41,468 nt of DNA from Paracoccaceae bacterium (GTDB lineage: Bacteria > Pseudomonadota > Alphaproteobacteria > Rhizobiales > Stappiaceae). A program made the translations under genes and the position numbers. Within the stretch, counting starts at the first letter, position 1. Each line of letters opens with the position of its first letter. The notes below the pieces were generated by a model that saw only the letters and a list, made by a program, of their open reading frames with translations, made no database searches and had not been told where the DNA came from. The stretch covers positions 1-41,468 of the forward strand of contig JABXHV010000073.1 of NCBI GenBank assembly GCA_013373445.1, read 5' to 3'. Below are positions 28,430-41,468 of this stretch, in pieces.

Positions 28430-28543
28430 TTGGCGCGCCTGGATGGCGACACTTCGAACGAGTTGTTTGAAGTTCTGGCCGACTGGAACACCCAATTAGA
28501 GCACCTGAGATCGAAAGATCATCAGGTGCCGCCATGCCCGTAA
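28430..28543 (+). CDS. Possible 37-residue leader ORF before mobC
   Basis: A TTG at 28430 lies 8 nt after a perfect GGAGG (28417-28421). It opens a frame of 37 codons (ARLDGDTSNELFEVLADWNT...) that stops at 28541-28543, overlapping the mobC start by 10 nt. It runs across the hairpin at 28501-28529, so its translation would open that hairpin. The peptide is acidic and looks protein-like, but no homolog is recognised. It may also be the remnant of a longer gene. Confidence 0.35.
   Translation: MARLDGDTSNELFEVLADWNTQLEHLRSKDHQVPPCP
28501..28529 (+). promoter_or_regulatory. Strong hairpin covering the mobC ribosome site; possible oriT inverted repeat
   Basis: GCACCTGA (28501-28508) pairs with TCAGGTGC (28522-28529). 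Inside it, GATC (28509-28512) pairs with GATC (28517-28520), closing a GAAA tetraloop. Only A28521 is unpaired, so this is a 12-bp stem with one bulge. The AGGTG that would serve as the mobC ribosome site (5 nt before ATG 28534) is within the 3' arm. Position upstream of mobC also suits an oriT inverted repeat. Confidence 0.6.
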
Positions 28544-28956
28544 AGAACAAATTCGAGGCATCGGCCAACAAAACACCCAGCAGCGACCCCAAGCGCAAGC
28601 GTCCCGCGCCGCTCAGCATTCGGTTGAATGATGCTGAACGCGCGCAGCTAGTCAGTGAAGCCAAAGATCAGCCTCTAAGCACGTATATAAAAGCCAAAGC
28701 GCTCGGAACCGGGCCTGTCCGGCTGCGCCGTTCTGGCCTCTCTGTCGAGGACCGCAAAGCACTGGCTCAGGCGCTCGCCCTGCTTGGCACAAGCCATCTT
28801 CCCACTTCCCTTAAACAAATTGCCCGCGCGGTCGAGGTCGGTGTTCTTCCTGTCACACCCGAAACCGAAGCCGAGCTTTTTAGCGCGCTAAAAACGGTTT
28901 GTGATTTGCGCGGCCTTCTCGTCCGCGCTTTGGGATTACAGGAGGCGGATGAATGA
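28534..28956 (+). CDS. mobC: MobC-like relaxosome accessory protein
   Basis: This is a 140-aa basic protein. After a lysine-rich tail, residues 26-55 (APLSIRLNDAERAQLVSEAK, then LSTYIKAKALG) form a ribbon-helix-helix-like DNA-binding segment typical of MobC mobilization proteins. The C-terminal half has the family's helical pattern (LAQALALLGTSHLPTSLKQI, LKTVCDLRGLLVRALGL). It would bind oriT and recruit the relaxase encoded directly downstream, with which it overlaps by 4 nt (ATGA). Its ribosome site is inside a strong hairpin, so expression is probably controlled. Confidence 0.85.
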   Translation: MPVKNKFEASANKTPSSDPKRKRPAPLSIRLNDAERAQLVSEAKDQPLSTYIKAKALGTGPVRLRRSGLSVEDRKALAQALALLGTSHLPTSLKQIARAVEVGVLPVTPETEAELFSALKTVCDLRGLLVRALGLQEADE

Positions 28957-30224
28957 TCCTGAAAGCCTCCCAACGCGGCGGCGGGCAAAACCTAGCCGCT
29001 CACTTGATGCGCGTCGATGATAACGAGCATGTGCTTGTCCATGAGCTTCGCGGCTTTGCCTCCGACAATCTGAAAAGCGCGTTCAAAGAAAGTGAAGCGA
29101 TCAGTCGCGGCACCAATTGCCGCCAGTATCTATTTTCTCTGAGCCTGAACCCGCCTGCGGGTGAAAGTGTTCCTGTCGAAATCTTCGAAGGCGCGATTGG
29201 TCAGATCGAAGAACGGCTCGGCCTTGAAGGTCAGCCGCGCGCAATTGTCTTCCATGAAAAGGAAGGTCGTCGTCACGCGCATTGCGTGTGGTCACGTATT
29301 GACGCTGAAACCATGACGGCCAAGCAACTCTCTTTCTTCAAGAACAAGCTGCAAACTGTTTCGCGTGACCTCTACCTGGAAAACGGCTGGAAACTTCCGA
29401 ATGGTCTTAAAAGCCCCTCGGAGCGCGATCCGACAAATTTCAATTTGGCCGAATGGCAACAAGCCAAACGTCAGGGTATTGATCCGCGCTGGCTGAAACA
29501 GGTCGCGCAAGATGCCTGGCAACGCTCGGACGGAGGCAAAGCCTTTGCCCACGCTATGCGTGATAACGGGCTGTTCCTTGCCAGAGGTGATCAGCGCGGC
29601 TTCGTCGCGGTCGATCATAACGGCGAGGTTTACGCGCTTGCCCGCCTTCTGAACCTGAAAAACAAAGAGGTGAATGCCCGGCTCGGCAAACCCGACAAGC
29701 TTTCAAGCGTCGAAGAGGCCCGCGCCATCATCAGCAAACGCATGACGCCCGCAATCCGCGCCCATATCAACGAAGCGCGCGAAAAGTACAAAGGCGAAGC
29801 GGCCAAGCTTGCCAAATACAAATCCGAACTGACAGCTTTGCACCGCCAGGCCCGTTCCAAGCTGGAAGATCGCCAGCGCAAGGAATGGGATGCGGAAAAC
29901 CTGCGGCGCGCGGAGCGATTGCCGCGCGGCCTTCGCGGTTTGTGGCACCGCCTAACGGGCAAGTATCAGGAAATCCGGCGGGCAAATGAACAAGAAGCCA
30001 GTTCAACGCGGCTGCGCCATCGTGATGAGCGGCAAACGCTCATCGACAAGCAGCTAGGCCAGCGCGCTGTCTTGCAAGAGCGCGTCAAGAACCTGCGCAA
30101 AGCCCAAGCGAACCAACTCCGCGAGCTGCGCCAGGACGTCTCTCGCTTTCTCACCTTTTCAAAAGCCCCACCCGCCCCCACGCGAAGCCGGGGACCATCC
30201 ATGGGCCTTGGCCTGAAACGCTAG
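28953..30224 (+). CDS. HUH relaxase (relaxase/mobilization nuclease)
   Basis: This is a 423-aa protein. The metal-binding HUH motif is clear in HEKEGRRHAHCVW (H101, H108, H110). The N-terminal SQRGGGQNLAAHLMRVDDNE and the VPVEIFEGAIGQIEERLGL stretch place it with a large alphaproteobacterial relaxase group. It should nick oriT and pilot the transferred strand. The first tyrosine in the protein is Y59, so the usual motif I tyrosine near residue 20 is missing and the nucleophile is not obvious. Residues about 265-400 are a long charged coiled-coil-like helix. An AGGAGG site within mobC precedes its ATG, and it is translationally coupled to mobC. Confidence 0.88.
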   Translation: MILKASQRGGGQNLAAHLMRVDDNEHVLVHELRGFASDNLKSAFKESEAISRGTNCRQYLFSLSLNPPAGESVPVEIFEGAIGQIEERLGLEGQPRAIVFHEKEGRRHAHCVWSRIDAETMTAKQLSFFKNKLQTVSRDLYLENGWKLPNGLKSPSERDPTNFNLAEWQQAKRQGIDPRWLKQVAQDAWQRSDGGKAFAHAMRDNGLFLARGDQRGFVAVDHNGEVYALARLLNLKNKEVNARLGKPDKLSSVEEARAIISKRMTPAIRAHINEAREKYKGEAAKLAKYKSELTALHRQARSKLEDRQRKEWDAENLRRAERLPRGLRGLWHRLTGKYQEIRRANEQEASSTRLRHRDERQTLIDKQLGQRAVLQERVKNLRKAQANQLRELRQDVSRFLTFSKAPPAPTRSRGPSMGLGLKR

Positions 30225-30249
30225 GGCCAACATAAAGAAAGGACATGTC

Positions 30250-30735
30250 ATGTCAGATGAATTCAAGAGCTTAAGCGTTGTCGCTCTTTTGTATGCGGCA
30301 TTCGTTGCATCAGCTTTCTACCTGTTTCCCTTCGTCACAGCTTGCGCATTGATATTGGATGTTTCTCTCACTGTTTTGTGCCTATTTTCCCGGAAAGTCC
30401 CTCTCAGCATTGGAGACTGGTTCATCTGCCCCAGACAGGCCAGAGCATTTCTATTTGGTGGTCTCGTCGCCCTGCTTGTTGCGCCATTTGTTGGGGGCAT
30501 TGCCTGGACCTTCTACGGCTATCCCGCAAACGCCAGTGCTTGGGCTCCCTTCCTTTTTCTCAGCTACTTAGTCGATTCCGTTGGAAGCTACCTATTTAGT
30601 CACTGCAAGGAGGAATACGGCGAGTACATGCGTCGTCCGACACCACAAAAAGAATACGCCGCGCGTTCACAGCCATCCCCTGCGAAGAAACCCTCCAAAT
30701 TCGCCTCATGGAACGATGAGGAGGAATTCCAATGA
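30250..30735 (+). CDS. Small membrane protein of the mobilization cassette
   Basis: This is a 161-aa protein, ATG preceded by AAAGGA. Three to four hydrophobic segments are visible (VVALLYAAFVASAFYLFPFV, TACALILDVSLTVLCLF, FLFGGLVALLVAPFVGGIAW, WAPFLFLSYLVDSVGSYLF). The last 45 residues are hydrophilic and basic and should face the cytosol. No family is recognised. It sits between the relaxase and a coupling protein that itself lacks membrane segments, so it could supply the membrane anchor. Its stop overlaps the next start by 4 nt. Confidence 0.65.
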   Translation: MSDEFKSLSVVALLYAAFVASAFYLFPFVTACALILDVSLTVLCLFSRKVPLSIGDWFICPRQARAFLFGGLVALLVAPFVGGIAWTFYGYPANASAWAPFLFLSYLVDSVGSYLFSHCKEEYGEYMRRPTPQKEYAARSQPSPAKKPSKFASWNDEEEFQ

Positions 30736-30962
30736 GCGCCGACGGTTTCAGCAAGTTCTTCGAATTCTTTCATGCGCTCGAAACCCGCCATCAGCAACGG
30801 CTTGCCTGGGACGATGCCGCCGAGGCCCGCATTGCGCGGGTCAAAGCCGAAGAAGCGGCCAAAGCGCAGCTCCAAGCCATGCTGGATGCCAACCCAAGCG
30901 GCGCGCTCGGCCATTCCAAACTTAATGACATTGAAGCCCTGAAACGCGAGGGTTTGCTGTGA
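30732..30962 (+). CDS. Small helical protein of the mobilization cassette
   Basis: This is a 76-aa, strongly charged and probably all-helical protein (WDDAAEARIARVKAEEAAKA as a coiled-coil-like helix). It overlaps the membrane protein by 4 nt upstream and the coupling protein by 4 nt downstream (GTGA), so it is co-translated with both. It may link the relaxase or membrane protein to the coupling protein. No family is recognised. Confidence 0.6.
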   Translation: MSADGFSKFFEFFHALETRHQQRLAWDDAAEARIARVKAEEAAKAQLQAMLDANPSGALGHSKLNDIEALKREGLL

Positions 30963-32377
30963 GTGATCTCGTCGAAACCAAACGCCATATTCGGCCCGGC
31001 ATCGAGCTTGGCTTTGTTGATGGTCAGCCGCTTATCTATGATGGCACGGAACCCGTCGCCATTGATGCGCAAGCGGGAAAAGGAAAGCTCACGCGATTTC
31101 TAGGCGTCAATCTGGTGTCGCCGCGTACGGCGCATCTGACCAAAATCACCCCTGACACAAAAGACGCTGAGCTTGCCTGGGCGTCGTGGAAGACTTTGGA
31201 GCGGCAAGGCTACCGCGTCCGCTTCATCAATCCCGGCCAACTCTACGGCTATCCAAGCGAGACCTATAATCTCAATACAAGGCTCTTGGAGATTGCCTCT
31301 GAGCCTCGGCTTCGCCCTCTGGTCGGTGAAGCCGCCTATGACGCGGCCAGCTATCTGATACCGATTGATCCCAACCCGGCGCATCGCTGGATTGGGCAAG
31401 GCGCTCGCTCAGCATCCGCGCTCTATTACAAAATCACAGCGCTCTACCCTTCAAGGCAGTGGCCGTGCAATCCGGGCGGGCTGTGGGATTTTTACGCCCG
31501 CAGCCCCGATGAGATTGCCATTGATCTGCTGGAATGTTCGCTTGATCCGCGCCTGCAGGATGATTCCGGCATGTGCCGTCAGATTGCCAGCTTCACAGAG
31601 TCCCGCGATCAGTGGAATGCCTATGCCTCCCTCTTCATGGAACGCCTGCAAGGCTTCCAGCCTGGCTCGGCGGGACGCTATGCCACCGAAACCAGTTCCT
31701 TCGATCCGGCGGACATGAAGAACGAGCGCACGGCGCTCTTTATTCTCGGCTCTGCCCGCAGTGAAACAAGCCGCAACTTTGTGGGCGCGATGACGGCAGC
31801 AATCATTGAACGCTTTGCCGATGCGCATGGATCGCTGCGCGCGCTTGTCGTCGGCGAAGAATGGGGGCAGCTCTATGTTTCCAACTTCTATGAAATCCTC
31901 ACCCTCTACCGTCAGGGTGGCATCAACTTTCTGGGCGTGTTTCAAAATGCCGCCGCGCAGATTGAAACCAAATACGGCAAGGAAACGGCGCGGATTTGGA
32001 AAAAGGCCGTTGCGCATACGCTCTATCGCGGCTTGCCGGAAAACGACACACTGAAAGAAATTGAGCATCGCTCGGGCAAAACAAGCGTCATGGTGCGCGG
32101 CTTCAACGTCAACCAAAACCAGGTCAGCGGCTCCGGCGATAGCCTCTCCGAACAATCGCGCCCACTGCTGCAAGTTGAAGACATTCGCAAGGCTACGGGC
32201 GGGGAAACCGCCCTGCTGGAATCCCGTGATCTGGGATATTTCGTTGTCGATATGCCGAATTTCTGGGAGCGCCCTGAAATGCACGGCTATTTGCGCGATG
32301 TTCGCCAAAAGCCCGACAAATATGCCTGGCTTTCGGGACCCCTGCTGAGGGACGCCAGGGCCTCTATAGAAGCATAA
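30959..32377 (+). CDS. Soluble VirD4/TraG-like type IV coupling protein with altered Walker B
   Basis: This is a 472-aa ATPase-fold protein starting at a GTG that overlaps the previous stop. The P-loop is the coupling-protein form DAQAGKGKLTRF (G40-K41-G42). The second half matches VirD4/TraG through the TraM-recognition region: LYRQGGINFLGVFQNAAAQI, YGKETARIWKKAVAHTLYRG and LSEQSRPLLQVEDIRKATGG. The Walker B strand reads ALVVGEEWGQL, so the usual Asp is Gly299 with Glu300 and Glu301 following. The N-terminal transmembrane domain of VirD4 proteins is absent. It would connect the relaxosome to a helper secretion channel. Confidence 0.75.
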   Translation: MSDLVETKRHIRPGIELGFVDGQPLIYDGTEPVAIDAQAGKGKLTRFLGVNLVSPRTAHLTKITPDTKDAELAWASWKTLERQGYRVRFINPGQLYGYPSETYNLNTRLLEIASEPRLRPLVGEAAYDAASYLIPIDPNPAHRWIGQGARSASALYYKITALYPSRQWPCNPGGLWDFYARSPDEIAIDLLECSLDPRLQDDSGMCRQIASFTESRDQWNAYASLFMERLQGFQPGSAGRYATETSSFDPADMKNERTALFILGSARSETSRNFVGAMTAAIIERFADAHGSLRALVVGEEWGQLYVSNFYEILTLYRQGGINFLGVFQNAAAQIETKYGKETARIWKKAVAHTLYRGLPENDTLKEIEHRSGKTSVMVRGFNVNQNQVSGSGDSLSEQSRPLLQVEDIRKATGGETALLESRDLGYFVVDMPNFWERPEMHGYLRDVRQKPDKYAWLSGPLLRDARASIEA

Positions 32378-32437: not shown

Positions 32438-33733
32438 ATGAACGACGAAGAAAGAGAGTGGGTTCTTCCTGCTTCAATTCCTTTTGCGGAATTGAAGGGA
32501 AAGGACTTGGAAGAGTGTCTATATTGGCTCTTCGATGCCATAGGAGCCAAAGACCTTGAATGGCGCACGGGAGGCAGCGGCGGCGGCGCTTCGGACGGTG
32601 GCCGCGACCTCGAGGCACATTTCTATACGCCAACAGCAGACCAAGAAATGGAACCGCAGGTCTGGTGGGTGGAATGCAAGGGACGAAGCGGCACGGTAGA
32701 AGCCGACGAGGTAAAGAGCGCTGTTATCAACGCTCAGGCCAAAGGCGGACTCGACTATGTCGTCATTGCCACCAACACCCAGTTCTCCAATCCCACCCGC
32801 GACTGGGTAAAGGAGTGGCAGAAGAACAATCCTCGGCCCAAGGTCAAGCTTTGGGATGGCGCTCATCTGGAGCGGCTTTTGTCGGGTCATCCCGATGTGG
32901 TCCTGCGGCTTTTTTCTGAGGCGCTCAGCCTTGATGGACAGTTTCAGGCGCTTGAGTCGCGGTTTTGGAACAAGCTCGAATTCGTCTCCTCCCCCACGCT
33001 GAAAAAACTTTGGAAAGCGCGCGCCGAAGCTGAATTTACATCGCTAGGCGTATTTGCGCTCATCACGAACGAATTCGCCAATGGCAGTATCACGCACCGG
33101 CCCTGGGGCGCGGTGCTCAGCACGGCTTCGCTCGTCGAGGTCTTGCACCTAGGACTTGTGAACGTCCCTTATCTGATGATGCGCGCATCAAAGGCAGGTG
33201 TTGAGCAAACACCGGTTATTCGCGCCTTCTCCTATTTGATCTTGTGCGCGATCGATCAGCTTCCGGCAGAAAGCGTCGCGGAGCTCGTCGTCAATTCGAT
33301 CACGCGCGGAGAACCGGACAAGTTCCCGGAAGATGTGCAATCATATCTATTAATGCCGATTGCCGACCAGCTTCTCTCCGAAATTCAGGATATCTGCAGC
33401 GAGGATTGCACACGCATCCTCGCCCTCGACCGTCAAACGCTTACAGAGGACAAGGATGAGATCGAGGAATACTGGCTTCGCTTAGATCCGACTGGCATTG
33501 AAGAATCCGAGGAACCCAGGAAGCATCTCCGTATCGAATCCTACAAGGAGCCGTGTCAGGTAGGTTTCGCTGTCGATAAGGAGCAAGGCTGCCCACTGTT
33601 CGGCATTGAACCGACTGTGCAGAATTTTAGTGAGCTGCTGGCCATCATCAAACGCGTAGCGACATACCGCAAAGCCCAGGCCGCAGATAAGAAGGACGCC
33701 GACGCTGTTAAGCGCGCTGCGAAGGCAGAATAG
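32438..33733 (+). CDS. Mrr-like restriction endonuclease family protein
   Basis: This is a 431-aa protein. Residues 15-140 form a PD-(D/E)XK nuclease domain of the Mrr_cat/restriction-endonuclease type: GKDLEECLYWLFDAIGA (first helix), GGASDGGRDLEAHF with D57, WWVECKGRSGTV with E79 and K81, then DYVVIATNTQFSNPTRDWV. The remaining 290 residues are helical with no recognised domain and may sense the target or a partner. It is separated from the coupling protein by 60 bp and followed after 1 nt by the next gene, so it starts a separate cargo operon. The metal-dependent nuclease site looks intact, so an active DNase is likely. Confidence 0.8.
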   Translation: MNDEEREWVLPASIPFAELKGKDLEECLYWLFDAIGAKDLEWRTGGSGGGASDGGRDLEAHFYTPTADQEMEPQVWWVECKGRSGTVEADEVKSAVINAQAKGGLDYVVIATNTQFSNPTRDWVKEWQKNNPRPKVKLWDGAHLERLLSGHPDVVLRLFSEALSLDGQFQALESRFWNKLEFVSSPTLKKLWKARAEAEFTSLGVFALITNEFANGSITHRPWGAVLSTASLVEVLHLGLVNVPYLMMRASKAGVEQTPVIRAFSYLILCAIDQLPAESVAELVVNSITRGEPDKFPEDVQSYLLMPIADQLLSEIQDICSEDCTRILALDRQTLTEDKDEIEEYWLRLDPTGIEESEEPRKHLRIESYKEPCQVGFAVDKEQGCPLFGIEPTVQNFSELLAIIKRVATYRKAQAADKKDADAVKRAAKAE

Positions 33734-33734
33734 T

Positions 33735-34358
33735 ATGGGGTCGTCTGCGCTACCAGACAATTTTGAGATTGCACCTGGCCACCGGGTGAAAGGTTGGAGG
33801 AGCCTTACACTGGATGAGAAGAACTCCACGTCATCAGACTGGACCAAGGCAATCGCCATTCTCGATTCACGCATCCGGCGCCGTTTTATAGAGCCAGCAC
33901 AGCTGTTGATCGATGCAGAGACCGGAAAGAGTCGCGGGACAAACGGCTTTGCCGTGCTGGCTATCGACTTTCTCCTTATCGAAACCATTCAAGGATTTCG
34001 GCAGGGTCTTACCAACCATAACGGCCAGAGCAAAGCACTTTTCAAGGCGTTCTTGACCAACTGGCCAGCATTCACAGCCTGCCTACCCCAAGGCTCGGAT
34101 GCTGACGATTTGGCTGTTAGCGTTTATGAGCAGGGTCGCTGCGCGCTTCATCATACGGGTTCAACCGACCGTGTTATCGTTCGCAAGAGCGGCAAGATGT
34201 TTGTCTTTCACAATGACGGGCGGATCGTGATCAATCGCACATTATTGCATCAGCAATTGGTCAAGGCGTTTGACGTCTATATCGCGGCGCTGACAAACCC
34301 TGCCAATATCGATATGCGCGAAAGGTTTAAGCAGAAAATGGCCCATATCTGCTCATGA
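33735..34358 (+). CDS. Protein with HEPN-type R-x4-H motif, partner of the Mrr-like nuclease
   Basis: This is a 207-aa protein starting 1 nt after the nuclease stop. It is mostly helical, with GTNGFAVLAIDFLLIETIQG in the middle and YEQGRCALHHTG near residue 131. R135-x4-H140 fits the catalytic motif of HEPN-superfamily RNases, preceded by a helix as in that fold. I recall similar uncharacterised proteins with an RC(x2)LH core in accessory regions. RNase activity is inference. Its stop overlaps a 43-aa ORF by 4 nt. The tight coupling suggests one functional unit with the nuclease. Confidence 0.6.
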   Translation: MGSSALPDNFEIAPGHRVKGWRSLTLDEKNSTSSDWTKAIAILDSRIRRRFIEPAQLLIDAETGKSRGTNGFAVLAIDFLLIETIQGFRQGLTNHNGQSKALFKAFLTNWPAFTACLPQGSDADDLAVSVYEQGRCALHHTGSTDRVIVRKSGKMFVFHNDGRIVINRTLLHQQLVKAFDVYIAALTNPANIDMRERFKQKMAHICS

Positions 34359-34751: not shown

Positions 34752-35267
34752 TCAGGAAATAGCACCCCGAGGCCGCCAGCCGCCATTCGTGCTCTTGGGA
34801 TCAATGAGTTCACCGGCAACAACTTCAACTACGGTGCATGACGAGGTCAGATATTCCCAACCAGGCGTGTTGGTGGCTTCGCCGTTCCAGTAGCCAGAGC
34901 AGCACTTCTCAATGAGATCGGGGCTCCATTCCGGATATTCTTTCATTCTTTCGTACTGAGTATATTTCAACCTAAGTAGTGCCTTCTGCATTTCACCGAT
35001 CCATGAGAAATCGCGCCTTTGAGGCTCGCCGCTTGGCACTACCTGATAGATGTAGCCAGAGCTGACAACGCCACAGGTGGTGAAGTCCGTACTTTCGAGG
35101 CAATACACGGCACCACGCCGAGGGAAAGCACCATCAGGCCTCCGCTTTTCTAGCTCGTCTTCAATTCGAGCATCAACTTTGTCCCTGCCGTTGCCGAAAA
35201 TTTCATCCCCAACGACATAGGTGGAAGGCGACATATGGAAATAACTCATCGGAAGTGTACCAGACAT
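34752..35267 (-). CDS. Small protein, possible ADP-ribosyltransferase-like fold, downstream of the PHP-ATPase
   Basis: This is a 171-aa protein. The layout resembles DUF2441-type and related ADP-ribosyltransferase-like proteins: YFHMSPSTYVVGDEI near the start (H11), a charged helix, FPRRGAVYCLES (R50/R51), GYIYQVVPSG, DFSWIGEMQKAL, SGYWNGEA and a late GWEYLTSSCTVVEVV (E138). An H...Y...E arrangement would suit NAD-dependent ADP-ribosylation, but the assignment is by eye and remote. The gene begins 11 nt after the stop of the 996-aa PHP/ATPase gene on the same strand, so the two form an operon. A toxin/effector role is inferred from this pairing. Confidence 0.5.
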   Translation of the reverse strand: MSGTLPMSYFHMSPSTYVVGDEIFGNGRDKVDARIEDELEKRRPDGAFPRRGAVYCLESTDFTTCGVVSSGYIYQVVPSGEPQRRDFSWIGEMQKALLRLKYTQYERMKEYPEWSPDLIEKCCSGYWNGEATNTPGWEYLTSSCTVVEVVAGELIDPKSTNGGWRPRGAIS

Positions 35268-35278
35268 TACAGATCGCC

Positions 35279-38269
35279 CTACTTGATCTGATATTTAAGG
35301 CGGCGCTGTACGAATGCTGGTTTGGAGCCTTCTAGAATCTTCACAATTACATCGTTGATACGCTGGTTCTCGATGGAACCTGATTCATAGGAAAACTTGT
35401 AGCCTGCGGCCTTATCTAGTGTGACATATAGAACTTGCTCTGCATCCGCTCCGACCGCAAGGTTCGGGTTGTGTGTAACCAATATTACCTGCCGTGTCTT
35501 TTTGGCTTCGCGAATGCAGTTTGCGAGGACAGAAAAAATACTGTCGTTATCGAGATTGTCTTCGGGCTGATCTATAATTAGCGGGGTCTTCTCCATGTCG
35601 AGATGGAGGTAGAATACTAGAAGTAACAGACCCTTCTCACCCGGAGACAACTGGTTGAGGTTCTTTCCACCGAGGCGAAGCTCATAACGTGCATCAAAAT
35701 ATTCAAAGGACAGCAGTAGGTCATACAGGCGTTTAACGTCCTTTACCTGCTTGTCTACGTCTTCCTCAAAGATCGCACTAATAATGTTTTTCGAAAATGC
35801 GAGGATGCTATCGACATCATTCCATTCGACATCGGCCATAAGAGCTTCGAGCGCGGCGCGGCCTTGGGCAGCGCCGCGGAACGGGCCACTAGCGGACTGG
35901 TTCAGAAGATCGAGAAATTCATCAACGAAGTCATGCGAGGGTACGAAAGATGCGTCAATCGTAACCATAAATTCGTCTGAGTTTATGGTGGCTAAGCGCT
36001 CTTCAACGCTTGCCTTGAGACCTTCATAAAAAGAACGCACTTTCATCTTTGCTTCAAATATAGCGCGCGCTAAGGCATCGCGCTCATCGTATTTTTCTTC
36101 AAGCCTGGCGCTTAGTTCTTCGTCGATGTAACGGATGCGCCGTTCCAAATATTTGATAGTTCCGGGCTTCGGATTGTCGTCCTCGCCCATGACAGCAGTC
36201 ATCTTGGATTGAACGTCAGATAGCGCCTGTAAATATCGCTGGTACCGCCTTTGCGGCGCGGAAAGTGTTTCCTGCAATCCCTTCAGCTTTTCGGACAAAA
36301 ATTGGTATCCGGCACGGAGATCAGGAACGCTCGAGAACTTGGTCAAATCGGTAGTGTCAGAAATCGGGTCTTTCGCTGTCCGCTCTAACGATCTTATTTC
36401 AGCTTGGAGCGCGCTGATTTTTTCGTCGATGGGTTGAGTATTGATACGATGCGTAACGATGGCATCAATATCAAGGCCAAGGTTAGCGCAAGAGGGACGA
36501 AGTCCCTCCTTGCTTTCCTTGACATGAGTATCTACCGCTGTGAGGGCCTCTTTTAAAGTACCGAGACCTACGAGGTTTGTCTTAAGCGTAGAGAGGCCTT
36601 CAACGGCGTCTTTTCCTCGTTCTTCGATATCCTCTCGTAGCTCTCTTGTTTCTTCAATCTGGCGTGTTACCGCTTGCTGCTCGGACGTTTCGCCTTCTGG
36701 CTTTGTCACCTCTTGGGGTTTTGACTCCTCTAGAACGCGGTGTTCTTCCCGTTTTTGATTTAGCTCTTCATTGAGCCGCGTCTTCGTCGCCGGATCAGCC
36801 TGCTTTTCCAGTTCCACGATTTCGATGTTAAGTTCGCGCAGTCTGACTTTGAGGGCGCTGATGTCGCTCTTGCTCTGAGCGGTCTTTAGTTCTTCAAGTT
36901 CAGAAAATGTGGATTTCCCCATTCGGTCGGATTCATCGACATGTGAGAACACGACCTCCTCAATTTTCCGACGAAATGCTTTGACTTCGATTTCATTCGT
37001 AAGGCTCTCAAAGTAGTTCTGCGGAAGGTATTTTACGGCCTCGGGCTTAAGCGTATCCACATCTTCATCAAGGCGTTTCGAGGGCTTCGCGCCGCTGGCC
37101 CATGCGAGCTCGCCGGTAAAATTCTCCGCATACCCCTTCTGCCTAAATTTCCTGTTTTGAGCATCGTCTGTAAGGAACGAGAAATGGCCGAACTGCATCG
37201 ACTCCCCCAAGAGTCCGATAATGTCGGCAACAGCGCTCTTGCCGCTACCCTTGTTGCCAATGATCGCAGTTAGTTCAGGATTGAAAGGAATATCCACGTT
37301 CCTAAACCAAGAGCCGTTGGAGCCGGTATAGCCAGATACCTGATCCACCTTGAGCCCTGTGATAAATCGCGTCGCGTCTTGATCCAGCCGCTTTAAAACC
37401 GTTGGACGTTCGCCGATATAAACACGACCTTTCGGTTCAAAAAGCGTTTGCCGAAGACCGCGAAACGTGAGGTCGGCTTTGATCCAGGTCGATTCATAAC
37501 CGGCTTCATCGCCAGACAGGCGATTGAGGTCATCAAACGAGTGCGCATCGGAGCCTGAATAGACTGGCTTCCTGACACTTTCCGTTCCGTCCTCATAGCG
37601 ATCCAATCGCAGAAAATGGTTAGTGTTTTTTGATGAACCGAAAAACGCATCGCTTGCCTTATCAAGCTCATCCGAGATTGACATACTACGGGGCGATTTG
37701 CTGTCAACGCCTCGCAGCCCATCATTGTTGGCCGCTGTCACGATGATGTACGCGGTCTCGTCTGGAAATACTTTCGCGAGAGCAGCCTTCAATTCTGTGA
37801 TGCTGACTGTCGCCTGTTCATAATCCTCTCGTGACGAGAGTTCACTACAACGCAAACGTGCGCCGTCGCTAGTCTTGTGGGTCAGCAGGTCGCTTAGCAG
37901 CGTATCACGCTTTCCCTTCGTGGCAATGTTGGGGTCTAGAAGAACGTGAGTGTGAACGTTGCGTCCATCCGAACTAACGGTTTCGGTAAGGCGAAATTCA
38001 ATGTTCGGAAGGAAAAGCTTCGCCCCATTAGGATAATGTTTTTCGTATGCCTCAGCGACCGCCAGATAGCTGTCGAAAGAGAAGTAATCGGCAATTCCAA
38101 AAACCTGAACTTCGGAGGCCTCAAGCTGATCGAGGTAGCGCTTTAGGTTGACGTCCGATAACCCATCGAAACCGTCAGACAGTTTGGTGCCCGGAGCATG
38201 CAGGTGCAAATCCCACCGCTTCCAGATTGATCCTATTTTTTGGTGAACATCTTCCAACAACAAGCCCAT
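35279..38269 (-). CDS. PHP domain plus SMC/ABC-type ATPase protein (TrlF-like)
   Basis: This is a 996-aa protein. Residues 15-270 are a PHP phosphoesterase-like domain with metal ligands in order: H22-L-H24 (DLHLH), E91 (NIEF), H106/H108 (VHTH) and D241-x-H243 (GSDAHSFDDL). Residues 320-996 are an SMC/RecN-like ATPase: Walker A GNKGSGKS at 338-345, a long charged coiled coil from about 450 to 800 without a CxxC zinc hook, signature LSPGEKG, Walker B PLIIDQPEDNLD and H-loop LVTHNPN. Both active sites look complete. Similar proteins are labelled TrlF-family AAA-like ATPases and occur in defence islands. An ATP-gated nuclease or phosphatase role is inference. The ribosome site before ATG 38269 is poor. 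Confidence 0.85.
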   Translation of the reverse strand: MGLLLEDVHQKIGSIWKRWDLHLHAPGTKLSDGFDGLSDVNLKRYLDQLEASEVQVFGIADYFSFDSYLAVAEAYEKHYPNGAKLFLPNIEFRLTETVSSDGRNVHTHVLLDPNIATKGKRDTLLSDLLTHKTSDGARLRCSELSSREDYEQATVSITELKAALAKVFPDETAYIIVTAANNDGLRGVDSKSPRSMSISDELDKASDAFFGSSKNTNHFLRLDRYEDGTESVRKPVYSGSDAHSFDDLNRLSGDEAGYESTWIKADLTFRGLRQTLFEPKGRVYIGERPTVLKRLDQDATRFITGLKVDQVSGYTGSNGSWFRNVDIPFNPELTAIIGNKGSGKSAVADIIGLLGESMQFGHFSFLTDDAQNRKFRQKGYAENFTGELAWASGAKPSKRLDEDVDTLKPEAVKYLPQNYFESLTNEIEVKAFRRKIEEVVFSHVDESDRMGKSTFSELEELKTAQSKSDISALKVRLRELNIEIVELEKQADPATKTRLNEELNQKREEHRVLEESKPQEVTKPEGETSEQQAVTRQIEETRELREDIEERGKDAVEGLSTLKTNLVGLGTLKEALTAVDTHVKESKEGLRPSCANLGLDIDAIVTHRINTQPIDEKISALQAEIRSLERTAKDPISDTTDLTKFSSVPDLRAGYQFLSEKLKGLQETLSAPQRRYQRYLQALSDVQSKMTAVMGEDDNPKPGTIKYLERRIRYIDEELSARLEEKYDERDALARAIFEAKMKVRSFYEGLKASVEERLATINSDEFMVTIDASFVPSHDFVDEFLDLLNQSASGPFRGAAQGRAALEALMADVEWNDVDSILAFSKNIISAIFEEDVDKQVKDVKRLYDLLLSFEYFDARYELRLGGKNLNQLSPGEKGLLLLVFYLHLDMEKTPLIIDQPEDNLDNDSIFSVLANCIREAKKTRQVILVTHNPNLAVGADAEQVLYVTLDKAAGYKFSYESGSIENQRINDVIVKILEGSKPAFVQRRLKYQIK

Positions 38270-39564: not shown

Positions 39565-39897
39565 ATGACTAAAGACATTACTACTCTTCAGGAGCGTCCA
39601 GAAAAGCCGATAGGCAAAAGCAGCGCGGCCCTAGCGCCGGAACTCGATCCGTCGCGTTATATGTCTGAGTTGGAAGACTTTGATCTGAGCGAAGCCGAAA
39701 AGGTCGAACTTTTAGAGGCCCTATGGTTGATCATGTATTCCTTCGTCCGACTAGGCTTTGACGTCAAAAATTGTGGGCAGATTTTTGAAAACTTCACTCT
39801 GGAGACTCAAGGCAAACCCGGCGCGATAGACTCTTCTCATTCAGACAATGAGGAGAAGCCATCGAGCAAAAACGGGAGGACGCATGGCCATGAGTGA
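39565..39897 (+). CDS. Small acidic protein upstream of the serine recombinase
   Basis: This is a 110-aa protein. The ATG at 39565 is chosen because AAAGGAAA lies 6 nt upstream; an in-frame GTG at 39559 is too close. A central helix pair is predicted (FDLSEAEKVELLEALWLIMY, then SFVRLGFDVKNCGQIFENF) with disordered ends. Similar short proteins with a DLSE...E..LW.IM.SFV.LG pattern sit before recombinase genes in alphaproteobacterial elements, as I recall. Its 3' end overlaps the recombinase start, so the two are co-translated. It may help the recombinase, for example as a directionality factor, but that is inference. Confidence 0.65.
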   Translation: MTKDITTLQERPEKPIGKSSAALAPELDPSRYMSELEDFDLSEAEKVELLEALWLIMYSFVRLGFDVKNCGQIFENFTLETQGKPGAIDSSHSDNEEKPSSKNGRTHGHE

Positions 39898-41468
39898 CAC
39901 TCAATCAAATCAAGCGGTGATTTATCGCCGCGTTTCCAGCGCTAAGCAAACCAAGGTTGGCGATGGTCTCAACTCACAAGAAACCCGCTGCCGCGACTTC
40001 GCGCGGCTCAAGGGCTATCAGGTGATTGGCGTGTTCAGCGACGATATGTCAGGCAGCACGAAACAGCGCCCCGGTATGGAAACAATGCTTTCCTTCGTAA
40101 GAAAGCAGAAAGCTAAAGGCACTCGCATTCTCATTGATGATGTCTCGCGGCTTGCGCGCGGTCTGGATGCGCATCTGGAACTGCGCAGAAGCATCTCCGA
40201 AGCTGGCGGCGTTTTAGAATCTCCCTCTATCGAATTTGGAGAAGACTCAGATTCAATCCTGGTCGAGAATCTGCTCGCCAGTGTCTCGCAGCATCAACGC
40301 CAGAAGAACGGCGAGCAAACGAAGAACCGAATGAAGGCCCGCATCCAGAATGGCTATTGGGTCTTTCAAGCACCTGCGGGTTACAAATATGAGCGCGTCT
40401 CTGGACGCGGTAATATGATTGTTCGCGACGAACCCCTCGCCTCTGTTATTCAAGAAGCTCTGGAAGGCTATGCCTCAGGCCGCTTTAACAGTCAGGCCGA
40501 CGTTCAGCGTTTTTTGCAAGACAATCCTCTTTTCCCAAAAGATAGGCGCGGAGAGGTTCGTCATCAGCGCGTTTCTGTGCTGCTGAATCAGGCCGCGTAT
40601 GCCGGATATGTCGAAGCGCCGAATTGGGGCGTTGAAATGCGCGTTGGTCAGCATGAACCAATTATTTCTTCGCAAACCTATAAGCGCATTCAAGAGCGCC
40701 TCAAGGGCGGCTTCTACGCGCCGCGTCAATCCGATTTGAAAGAGGACTTCCCGCTGCGCGGTCATGTCGTCTGTAGCGACTGCGGAACGCCTTTGACGGC
40801 CTGCTGGTCGAAAGGCTCCAATAAAAAATATCCGTACTATCTCTGCCCGAAGCGCGGCTGCGATAGCTACGGTAAATCAATCCGCCGCGATAAGATCGAA
40901 GGTGAATTTGAGGCTTTGATCGGTCAAGCGACGCCAAGCGATGCCCTCTTTAAAGTGGGCAAGTCCATGTTCAAGGAACTCTGGGAGTACCAGGGCGCAC
41001 AGGCAGAGACCAATGCGAAGGCGATGAGCGCGAAGCTCGTTAAAATCGAAGGCAAGCTTTCCAAGCTGCTTGACCACATTCTCGACGCTTCCGTGCCGAG
41101 CGTCATCAAAGCCTATGAGGACAAGGTTCGCCAGCTGGAATTGGAGAAGCAATCTCTCAAGGAAAAGATGGCTTTGAACGCCAAGCCAGCGAGCACCTTT
41201 GACGAGTCACTTAGAACGGCTTTCGAATTTCTGAAAAACCCTTTGATTCTCTGGCGTTCAGAGAGAATCGAAGACCGTCAGATGCTGCTAAAACTCACCT
41301 TCAGCAAGCGGCTAGCATACTCTCGCAAAGAGGGATTTAGAACGGCAAATTTTAGTTTACCCTTCAAGGTCTTAGGTCAATTTTTGGGCTGTGAAAGCAA
41401 AATGGCGCACCCGACAGGATTCGAACCTGTGGCCTCTGCCTTCGGAGGGCAGCGCTCTATCCAGCTGA
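39884..41468 (+). CDS. Large serine recombinase / integrase, open to the window edge
   Basis: The frame has no stop before the window ends (at least 528 codons). GGGAGGA precedes ATG 39884; a second in-frame ATG is at 39890. The N-terminal resolvase domain has VIYRRVSSAKQ with catalytic Ser18, the LNSQETRCRDFARLKGY helix and ILIDDVSRLARG. It is followed by a recombinase domain (APAGYKYERV, VLLNQAAYAGYVEAPNWG), a zinc ribbon (CSDCG, then CPKRGC) and a C-terminal coiled coil. It would integrate and excise the element. After about 506 codons the frame enters the antisense strand of the tRNA-Arg gene and continues (AHPTGFEPVASAFGGQRSIQ). The natural stop is not visible. Confidence 0.9.
   Translation, partial: MAMSDTQSNQAVIYRRVSSAKQTKVGDGLNSQETRCRDFARLKGYQVIGVFSDDMSGSTKQRPGMETMLSFVRKQKAKGTRILIDDVSRLARGLDAHLELRRSISEAGGVLESPSIEFGEDSDSILVENLLASVSQHQRQKNGEQTKNRMKARIQNGYWVFQAPAGYKYERVSGRGNMIVRDEPLASVIQEALEGYASGRFNSQADVQRFLQDNPLFPKDRRGEVRHQRVSVLLNQAAYAGYVEAPNWGVEMRVGQHEPIISSQTYKRIQERLKGGFYAPRQSDLKEDFPLRGHVVCSDCGTPLTACWSKGSNKKYPYYLCPKRGCDSYGKSIRRDKIEGEFEALIGQATPSDALFKVGKSMFKELWEYQGAQAETNAKAMSAKLVKIEGKLSKLLDHILDASVPSVIKAYEDKVRQLELEKQSLKEKMALNAKPASTFDESLRTAFEFLKNPLILWRSERIEDRQMLLKLTFSKRLAYSRKEGFRTANFSLPFKVLGQFLGCESKMAHPTGFEPVASAFGGQRSIQL
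41403..41468 (-). tRNA. tRNA-Arg (CCG anticodon), partial at its 5' end
   Basis: The minus strand gives the last 66 nt of a tRNA. The D-arm begins TCAGCTGGATAGAGC. The anticodon stem CTGCC/GGCAG holds the loop CTCCGAA with anticodon CCG (plus-strand 41443-41445). The T-arm is ACAGG-TTCGAAT-CCTGT, and the 3' acceptor strand CGGGTGC is followed by G and an encoded CCA. The first 11 nt lie beyond the window. Its 3' end directly adjoins the serine recombinase and is the likely attachment site. Confidence 0.95.

Follow-up and report, generated by a model that had tools for sequence, protein, structure and literature searches.

ADP-ribosyltransferase toxin systems such as DarTG carry an ADP-ribosyltransferase (ART)-like gene in a two-gene cassette, and Ppl, a polymerase/histidinol phosphatase-like protein, is a single-gene system. 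The accessible text on Ppl presents it as an anti-phage system in which a PHP part is followed by an ATPase, and which goes with phage resistance in a genome-wide association study of S. epidermidis (PMC13152194). Here we describe a pair of genes from a 41,468-nucleotide (nt) contig of a Paracoccaceae bacterium (JABXHV010000073.1 in assembly GCA_013373445.1), referred to as the window, in which a PHP-SMC ATPase gene of the TrlF family is directly followed by a gene for a small, putatively ART-like protein. In the open-access literature, which leaves subscription papers and preprints largely outside so that an earlier mention is possible, we found neither a description of TrlF as a defence protein nor a pairing of TrlF with an ART-like protein. 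The features of the pair, with positions in the window and lengths in amino acids (aa), are as follows.

35279..38269, minus strand: TrlF-family PHP-SMC ATPase, 996 aa (NF045780 match; Pfam SMC_N and AAA_21; relative in locus L001).
34752..35267, minus strand: 171-aa DUF2441-like, candidate ART-like partner (relatives behind TrlF in loci L001 and L002; profile match to DUF2441).
37541..38206, minus strand: PHP metal-site stretch with H22, H24, D61, Y62, E91, H106, H108, D241 and H243 (residue check).
38084-38086: TrlF residue 62.
37946-37948: TrlF residue 108.
37235..37258, minus strand: Walker A, GNKGSGKS, with K344 (invariant in 18/18 aligned TrlFs).
35549..35647, minus strand: ABC signature (S875, G877) through Walker B and D-loop (D900, E903, D907), 18/18 invariant.
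35235..35237, minus strand: small-protein H11, candidate ART motif-I His (His in 6/6 rows that cover the position; the seventh is cut short).
34854..34856, minus strand: small-protein E138, candidate ART catalytic Glu (Glu in 7/7).

A preliminary description, made from the sequence alone, had proposed two open reading frames (ORFs) of 996 and 171 aa separated by 11 nt, and their coordinates, lengths and spacing were all verified; both genes run in the same direction on the minus strand, with the 11 nt lying between the TrlF stop and the start of the small gene. The residues that it had singled out, namely H22, H24, E91, H106, H108, D241, H243 and K344 in the large protein and E138 in the small one, stand where it had put them. 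Its identification of a PHP-SMC ATPase is borne out by a match of 683.7 bits to the NCBIfam model of TrlF (NF045780, cut-off 350), which joins residues 13-994 to profile positions 2-944; the relatives in L006 and L002 reach 677.7 and 448.7 bits, respectively. The Pfam scan of this protein gave SMC_N (48.4 bits, cut-off 40) and AAA_21 above cut-off and no PHP match, and the PHP part was recognised through the full-length TrlF match together with its residues. K344, S875, G877, D900, E903, D907 and H933 are invariant across all 18 aligned TrlFs, and the protein possesses the Walker A Lys, signature Ser-x-Gly, Walker B Asp-x-x-Glu and H-loop His of an SMC/Rad50-type ABC ATPase.

The window's protein shares with Ppl the order of PHP and ATPase, and its C-terminal ATPase part can be aligned with that of Ppl, but at 89.2 bits against a cut-off of 1000 it falls outside the Ppl family (NF042955), as it does outside the Spaf_1101 family (NF045781; 145.5 bits, cut-off 475). 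Judged by these scores, it clearly belongs to TrlF, a family related to the anti-phage protein Ppl, and the large gene is probably an anti-virus gene of a known family. The locus differs from TrlF as the family is modelled in that the model names no partner and most fetched TrlF loci have no ART-like gene. It differs from DarTG-type systems in that the partner of the ART-like gene is a PHP-SMC ATPase, and no macrodomain was reported among the window proteins scanned with Pfam and NCBIfam.

The small gene is found behind TrlF elsewhere as well. A pattern scan for the small protein over genome contigs, with one genome per species and 84,980 species, matched 107 stretches, two of which were confirmed, one in a Hyphomicrobiaceae metagenome genome (L001; 69% by tblastn) and one in Hyphobacterium indicum (L002; 66%). 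At both loci the small gene is directly behind a TrlF gene, following it by 10 nt in L001 and overlapping its end by 11 nt in L002, where the ATPase has 941 aa and its score exceeds the TrlF cut-off of 350 bits. The gene order in L001 is a DUF3363 relaxase-like gene, an Eco57I-like methylase, an XhoI-type restriction enzyme, TrlF and the small gene, with a tyrosine integrase further on; that in L002 is type III-like mod and res (labels that are best NCBIfam matches below cut-off), TrlF, the small gene, ArdA, AbiEi/AbiEii and a VirD4-like gene. The preliminary description had named confinement of the pair to this element as an outcome that would refute it; because the pair recurs in L001 and L002, a pair unique to this element is ruled out.

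The two genes do not share one history. The small proteins are 67.3% (window and L001), 64.2% (window and L002) and 71.5% (L001 and L002) identical, and the corresponding values for TrlF are 86.3%, 25.8% and 25.6%; small-protein identities of 64-72% beside TrlF identities of 86% and 26% therefore point to different histories. These identities imply a change of partners, in which either the small gene or the adjoining TrlF was exchanged. Between the window and L001, the ratio of nonsynonymous to synonymous substitution rates (dN/dS) is 0.128 for the small gene (dS 1.60) and 0.057 for TrlF (dS 1.36), with dS near saturation; both genes are under purifying selection and behave as real genes. The presence of the small gene behind quite different TrlFs suggests a swappable effector.

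What such an effector might be is suggested by the relationship of the small protein to DUF2441. The small protein has no direct family match in Pfam, NCBIfam or PADLOC, and it falls outside DUF2441 (PF10386) as Pfam delimits it (above 25 bits), as none of the three members matched at E values up to 10. A six-frame search for DUF2441 gave matches in 2 of 398 genomes and none in the window's genome. One PHROG was matched at E 0.33 by one of the three members, and the best match in a search of solved structures with alignment A1 had E 0.5. With alignment A3 there was a 27-residue match to nvBagel4 (E 6.6e-4), but no single stretch passed, and the other matches were at E 0.016 or worse.

The relationship appears through more distant proteins. 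A weak tblastn match (23%, E 0.01) connects the small protein to Vibrio megaplasmid proteins, and a copy of the latter on a viral contig (L011) matched Pseudomonas megaplasmid proteins at E 3e-9 and 4e-5. The YHGS start, SVFL strand, YWxG and late Glu of the Vibrio and Pseudomonas proteins resemble FHxS, [AS]V[YF], YWxG and E138 in the window's family, and the three-sequence profile matched the Vibrio and Pseudomonas profile at 97.4%. A profile of seven sequences (A4: the close family with these relatives, the row of L005 being cut too short at the N-terminus) was compared by hhalign with one of five DUF2441 proteins (A5), giving 91.0%, E 1.1e-6 and a score of 46.2 over 87 columns, and 89.8% was obtained with a wider set of seven DUF2441 proteins. 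In the controls, 100 column shuffles gave at most 1.3% and a score of at most 19.0, and the reversed profile gave 0.1%; the similarity thus lies above the shuffled controls, as we ask of a DUF2441-like superfamily member. In two further alignments (A7 and A9) the viral DUF2441 rows are badly placed in the middle part.

The small protein and DUF2441 share an order of motifs: FH near the start (in 4/5 DUF2441 rows), a PSR-like motif, a [V/I/L][F/Y/W] strand, YWxG, a late Glu and a V..V-like strand. They differ in the stretch from FH to the PSR-like motif, which is much shorter in the small protein. A candidate H-[Y/F]-E set in the small protein would consist of H11 (6/6 covering rows), Y/F55 and E138 (7/7 each), with catalytic roles that are presumed by analogy with ART motifs. 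DUF2441 itself is listed in the ART clan of Pfam, according to the accessible text of one source (PMC7955679).

The PHP domain of the window's TrlF departs from the textbook arrangement. The accessible part of one paper gives the canonical set of an active PHP domain as nine residues, HHDHEH[C/H]DH (PMC12926913), and the window's protein does not conform to it because Tyr62 takes the place of the usual motif-II His; the [C/H] position could not be located by eye. The preliminary description had spoken of a complete PHP metal site, and while the residues it named are present, that wording was too strong for a variant set with Tyr62 in place of the motif-II His. In a survey of 52 long TrlF-like ATPases, the window's included (54 were examined, and L033 and L084 were dropped with unaligned N-termini), this change is coupled to another: Tyr62 goes with His108 in 31/31 and His62 occurs without His108 in 21/21, counts that are uncorrected for kinship. 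By its residues, the window's PHP site looks like an intact variant of the Tyr62/His108 group rather than the canonical set.

This is not so for every partner-bearing TrlF. The TrlF of L002 has Gln at H22 and Arg at H243 and hence a degraded PHP site, by which we mean the replacement of H22, H24, D241 or H243, and the four TrlFs that precede an SLFN_AlbA_2 gene (L018, L019, L021 and L055) have degraded sites as well. Among the surveyed ATPases, the site is degraded in 5/10 that have a close downstream ORF (same strand, at least 150 aa, within -30 to +40 nt) versus 3/42 that have none (Fisher p 0.004). L001 and L002 entered this comparison through the small protein, and L087, which has a KAP partner, was found later and is unscored; within the ten, L018, L019 and L021 look like close kin, and three partner ORFs (L042, L045 and L051) lack a clear Pfam match and are perhaps not genes. 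Given the small number of ATPases and their kinship, the excess is only suggestive, a lead rather than a result. The pairing in L002 with a degraded site shows the PHP site to be dispensable for pairing, and it weakens the earlier idea that the PHP domain reverses a modification as a general role in the pair; removal of an ADP-ribose mark by PHP is disfavoured for the same reason.

We propose, at a probability of roughly 0.5, that the two genes form one defence cassette on a mobilizable element, made up of an ATP-gated TrlF sensor, an ADP-ribosylating effector and PHP as a second output. In this view, the SMC-type ATPase would respond to some sign of infection, possibly DNA ends or an upset in the state of restriction-modification, and the complex would be turned on when ATP is bound or hydrolysed. 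The 171-aa ART-like effector would then use NAD+ to modify a target and so stop the infected cell or the phage, and TrlF may have a further output in its PHP domain, acting as a metal-dependent phosphoesterase or nuclease. We infer the defence role from the relative Ppl, from the location of the pair on mobile DNA, and from its neighbours in L001 and L002, which include restriction-modification genes, AbiE and ArdA; ADP-ribosylation by the small protein is presumed from remote similarity, and the toxicity, trigger and physical interaction of the pair are presumed.

Several results weigh against this reading. The three close sequences alone match DUF2441 over their last 29-30 columns only (23.8%; 17.7% with the wider set), and the strong match depends on the distant Vibrio and Pseudomonas relatives. 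The mean pLDDT of AlphaFold models was 37.4 with four sequences and 36.7 with six; of the layout like that of ART-like DUF2441 proteins that had been suggested earlier, the relationship to DUF2441 stands, by profile and by the clan listing, and the ART fold is conjectural. The other proposals of the preliminary description, namely nucleotide processing by PHP, sensing of infection by the ATPase and a toxic small protein, are conjectural as well. In the genus, TrlF is matched in 6/45 genomes (5 above cut-off, with the window included) and the small gene in 1/45, the window's own. At TrlF-like loci, counted where the ATPase frame has at least 500 aa, the small gene is present in 3/71 (window, L001 and L002), and because the small protein itself led to L001 and L002, the relevant count is 0/68 at the other loci, two of which (L060 and L065) stop where the ATPase frame does. 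Furthermore, the fetched stretches around the distant relatives L004, L005, L011, L028 and L029 contain no TrlF-like ATPase.

In a sample of the class, TrlF occurs in 12/385 genomes and the small gene in 1/385, again that of the window. In a sample of the phylum, the small gene was matched in 2/398, once in the window and once over 60 residues interrupted by three stops, a match that was judged noise. A scan of viral contigs with the three-sequence alignment matched the pattern in 22 stretches, none of which was confirmed. A hidden Markov model of the small family, run at E up to 10 over 3,415 ORFs of loci L001-L084, found nine: the window's own copies of the small gene (L003 and L014), L001, L002 and the relatives L004, L005, L011, L028 and L029. 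On plasmids of Phaeobacter and Sulfitobacter, TrlFs that share 73% identity with that of the window lack the small gene; behind them, tblastn for the small protein gave a best E of 0.25 (L006) and 0.35 (L007), and a 78-residue piece in L010 (E 0.010) falls within the TrlF region and was dismissed as noise.

Alternatively, the small protein might control TrlF, modifying or binding it so as to check its ATPase or PHP domain, with TrlF alone as the effector. Most fetched TrlF genes have no such partner, so TrlF can presumably work alone, and the faster evolution of the small gene (dN/dS 0.128 vs 0.057) would fit a controlling role; however, the small family also goes with the 26%-identical TrlF and its degraded PHP site, so the small protein would need to control two very different proteins, and the 73%-identical TrlFs do without it, which leaves control of TrlF an unlikely explanation.

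Another possibility is that TrlF guards restriction-modification and is released to kill when a phage blocks restriction, the small protein being an accessory of the guard; PrrC with EcoprrI is the model for comparison. The surroundings of some TrlFs agree with this, as the pair of L001 follows the Eco57I-like methylase and the XhoI-type restriction enzyme and that of L002 the type III-like mod/res, L016 lies behind a frame that by eye resembles a restriction helicase, and the TrlF of L009 lies about 100 nt before a type I operon. However, the window has no methylase adjoining TrlF, only a convergent Mrr-type nuclease, and restriction-modification genes are listed in just 1/15 TrlF plasmid stretches (L009, among L006-L010 and L075-L084, whose gene tables are incomplete), and we regard a guard role as improbable. 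A passenger role for the small gene, which would then stand behind TrlF by chance on mobile DNA and have a separate function, would agree with its rarity, its absence behind most TrlFs and the other settings of its distant relatives, such as the vicinity of a Sir2-family gene on Vibrio megaplasmids, but is very doubtful given that both close relatives are directly behind TrlF, a gene in so few genomes of the class (12/385), and given the purifying selection.

A broader and more tentative view can be offered. TrlF could be a common chassis for sensing, with a slot that accepts different effectors; the ART-like gene would be one such cartridge, passed between distant TrlFs, with SLFN/AlbA_2 and KAP genes as others; the PHP catalytic site might be free to decay once a cartridge takes over, as in L002 and the SLFN-linked TrlFs, and the window would represent a stage with both outputs intact. 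A second, catalytically suggestive partner common to TrlFs only 26% identical provides a direct genetic handle, and single-gene mutation and partner crossing could reveal whether the ATPase acts as a sensor able to drive different effectors.

The remainder of the element bears out the earlier placement of the pair on mobilizable DNA beside a nuclease gene, as judged by the Pfam scan.

28534..32377, plus strand: mobilization region (Pfam: NikA-like, relaxase, VirD4/TraG-like).
28534-28956, plus strand: NikA-like gene (weak Pfam match, below cut-off).
28953-30224, plus strand: relaxase (Pfam).
30959-32377, plus strand: VirD4/TraG-like coupling protein (Pfam).
32438..34358, plus strand: convergent operon of an Mrr-type endonuclease (431 aa) and a 207-aa protein (Pfam Mrr_cat, 7.3e-09).
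39848..41467, plus strand: large serine recombinase (Pfam Resolvase, Recombinase and Zn_ribbon_recom).
41404-41468: 3' part of a tRNA gene (by eye tRNA-Arg, anticodon CCG).

To the left of about 28.4 kb, the ten scanned genes look chromosomal (transporters, oxidoreductases, an acyl-CoA dehydrogenase and others). From 28.5 kb the order is NikA-like gene, relaxase, VirD4/TraG-like gene, Mrr operon, the pair, a protein with a weak ribbon-helix-helix match in family scans, and the serine recombinase. The Mrr-type operon was treated as a neighbour outside the pair; its endonuclease has a weak PADLOC match to PDC-M58A, and its 207-aa protein had no match in the Pfam scan. The open frame of the recombinase extends into the tRNA part at the contig end, which was read by eye only and went undetected by ARAGORN; this overlap is a possible integration site. 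A 22-base piece of the tRNA has a single exact match in the whole assembly and no second copy within the window, and so a left attachment site was not found.

The distant relatives of the small protein (L004:5872-6399, L005, L011, L028 and L029) lie on Vibrio and Pseudomonas plasmids of 0.88-1.17 Mb and on one viral contig. A Sir2-family gene is near those of L004 and L005, both on Vibrio megaplasmids, and a DUF4326 gene is directly ahead of that in L029.

Other TrlF loci also have neighbours of interest. Genes with SLFN_AlbA_2 and HATPase_c_4 are directly behind TrlFs with a degraded PHP site (L018:3784-4995, L019:4140-5345, L021:4129-5340 and L055:7544-8734), and in a genome of the window's genus a KAP family NTPase gene overlaps the end of another TrlF by 4 nt (L087:1-1483). 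These resemble the window in having a tightly coupled downstream gene, but the partner families differ from its ART-like protein. In addition, a number of shorter ATPases of 621-712 aa were seen (L024, L052, L053, L057-L059, L061, L063, L064 and L066), with a 370-379-aa protein downstream at -8 to +21 nt that by eye resembles HEAT-type repeats. Two TrlF genes look broken: that of L092, whose genome carries an intact TrlF as well, is interrupted by a stop codon, and that of L010 has its match in two pieces and a frame of 823 aa. Finally, the TrlF of L009 and the type I operon behind it (L009:5671-14413), the latter with M, S and R annotated, are on a 25.7-kb Sulfitobacter plasmid, and on a Phaeobacter plasmid a gene annotated as a RES family NAD+ phosphorylase (L006:9258-10427) is convergent with TrlF.

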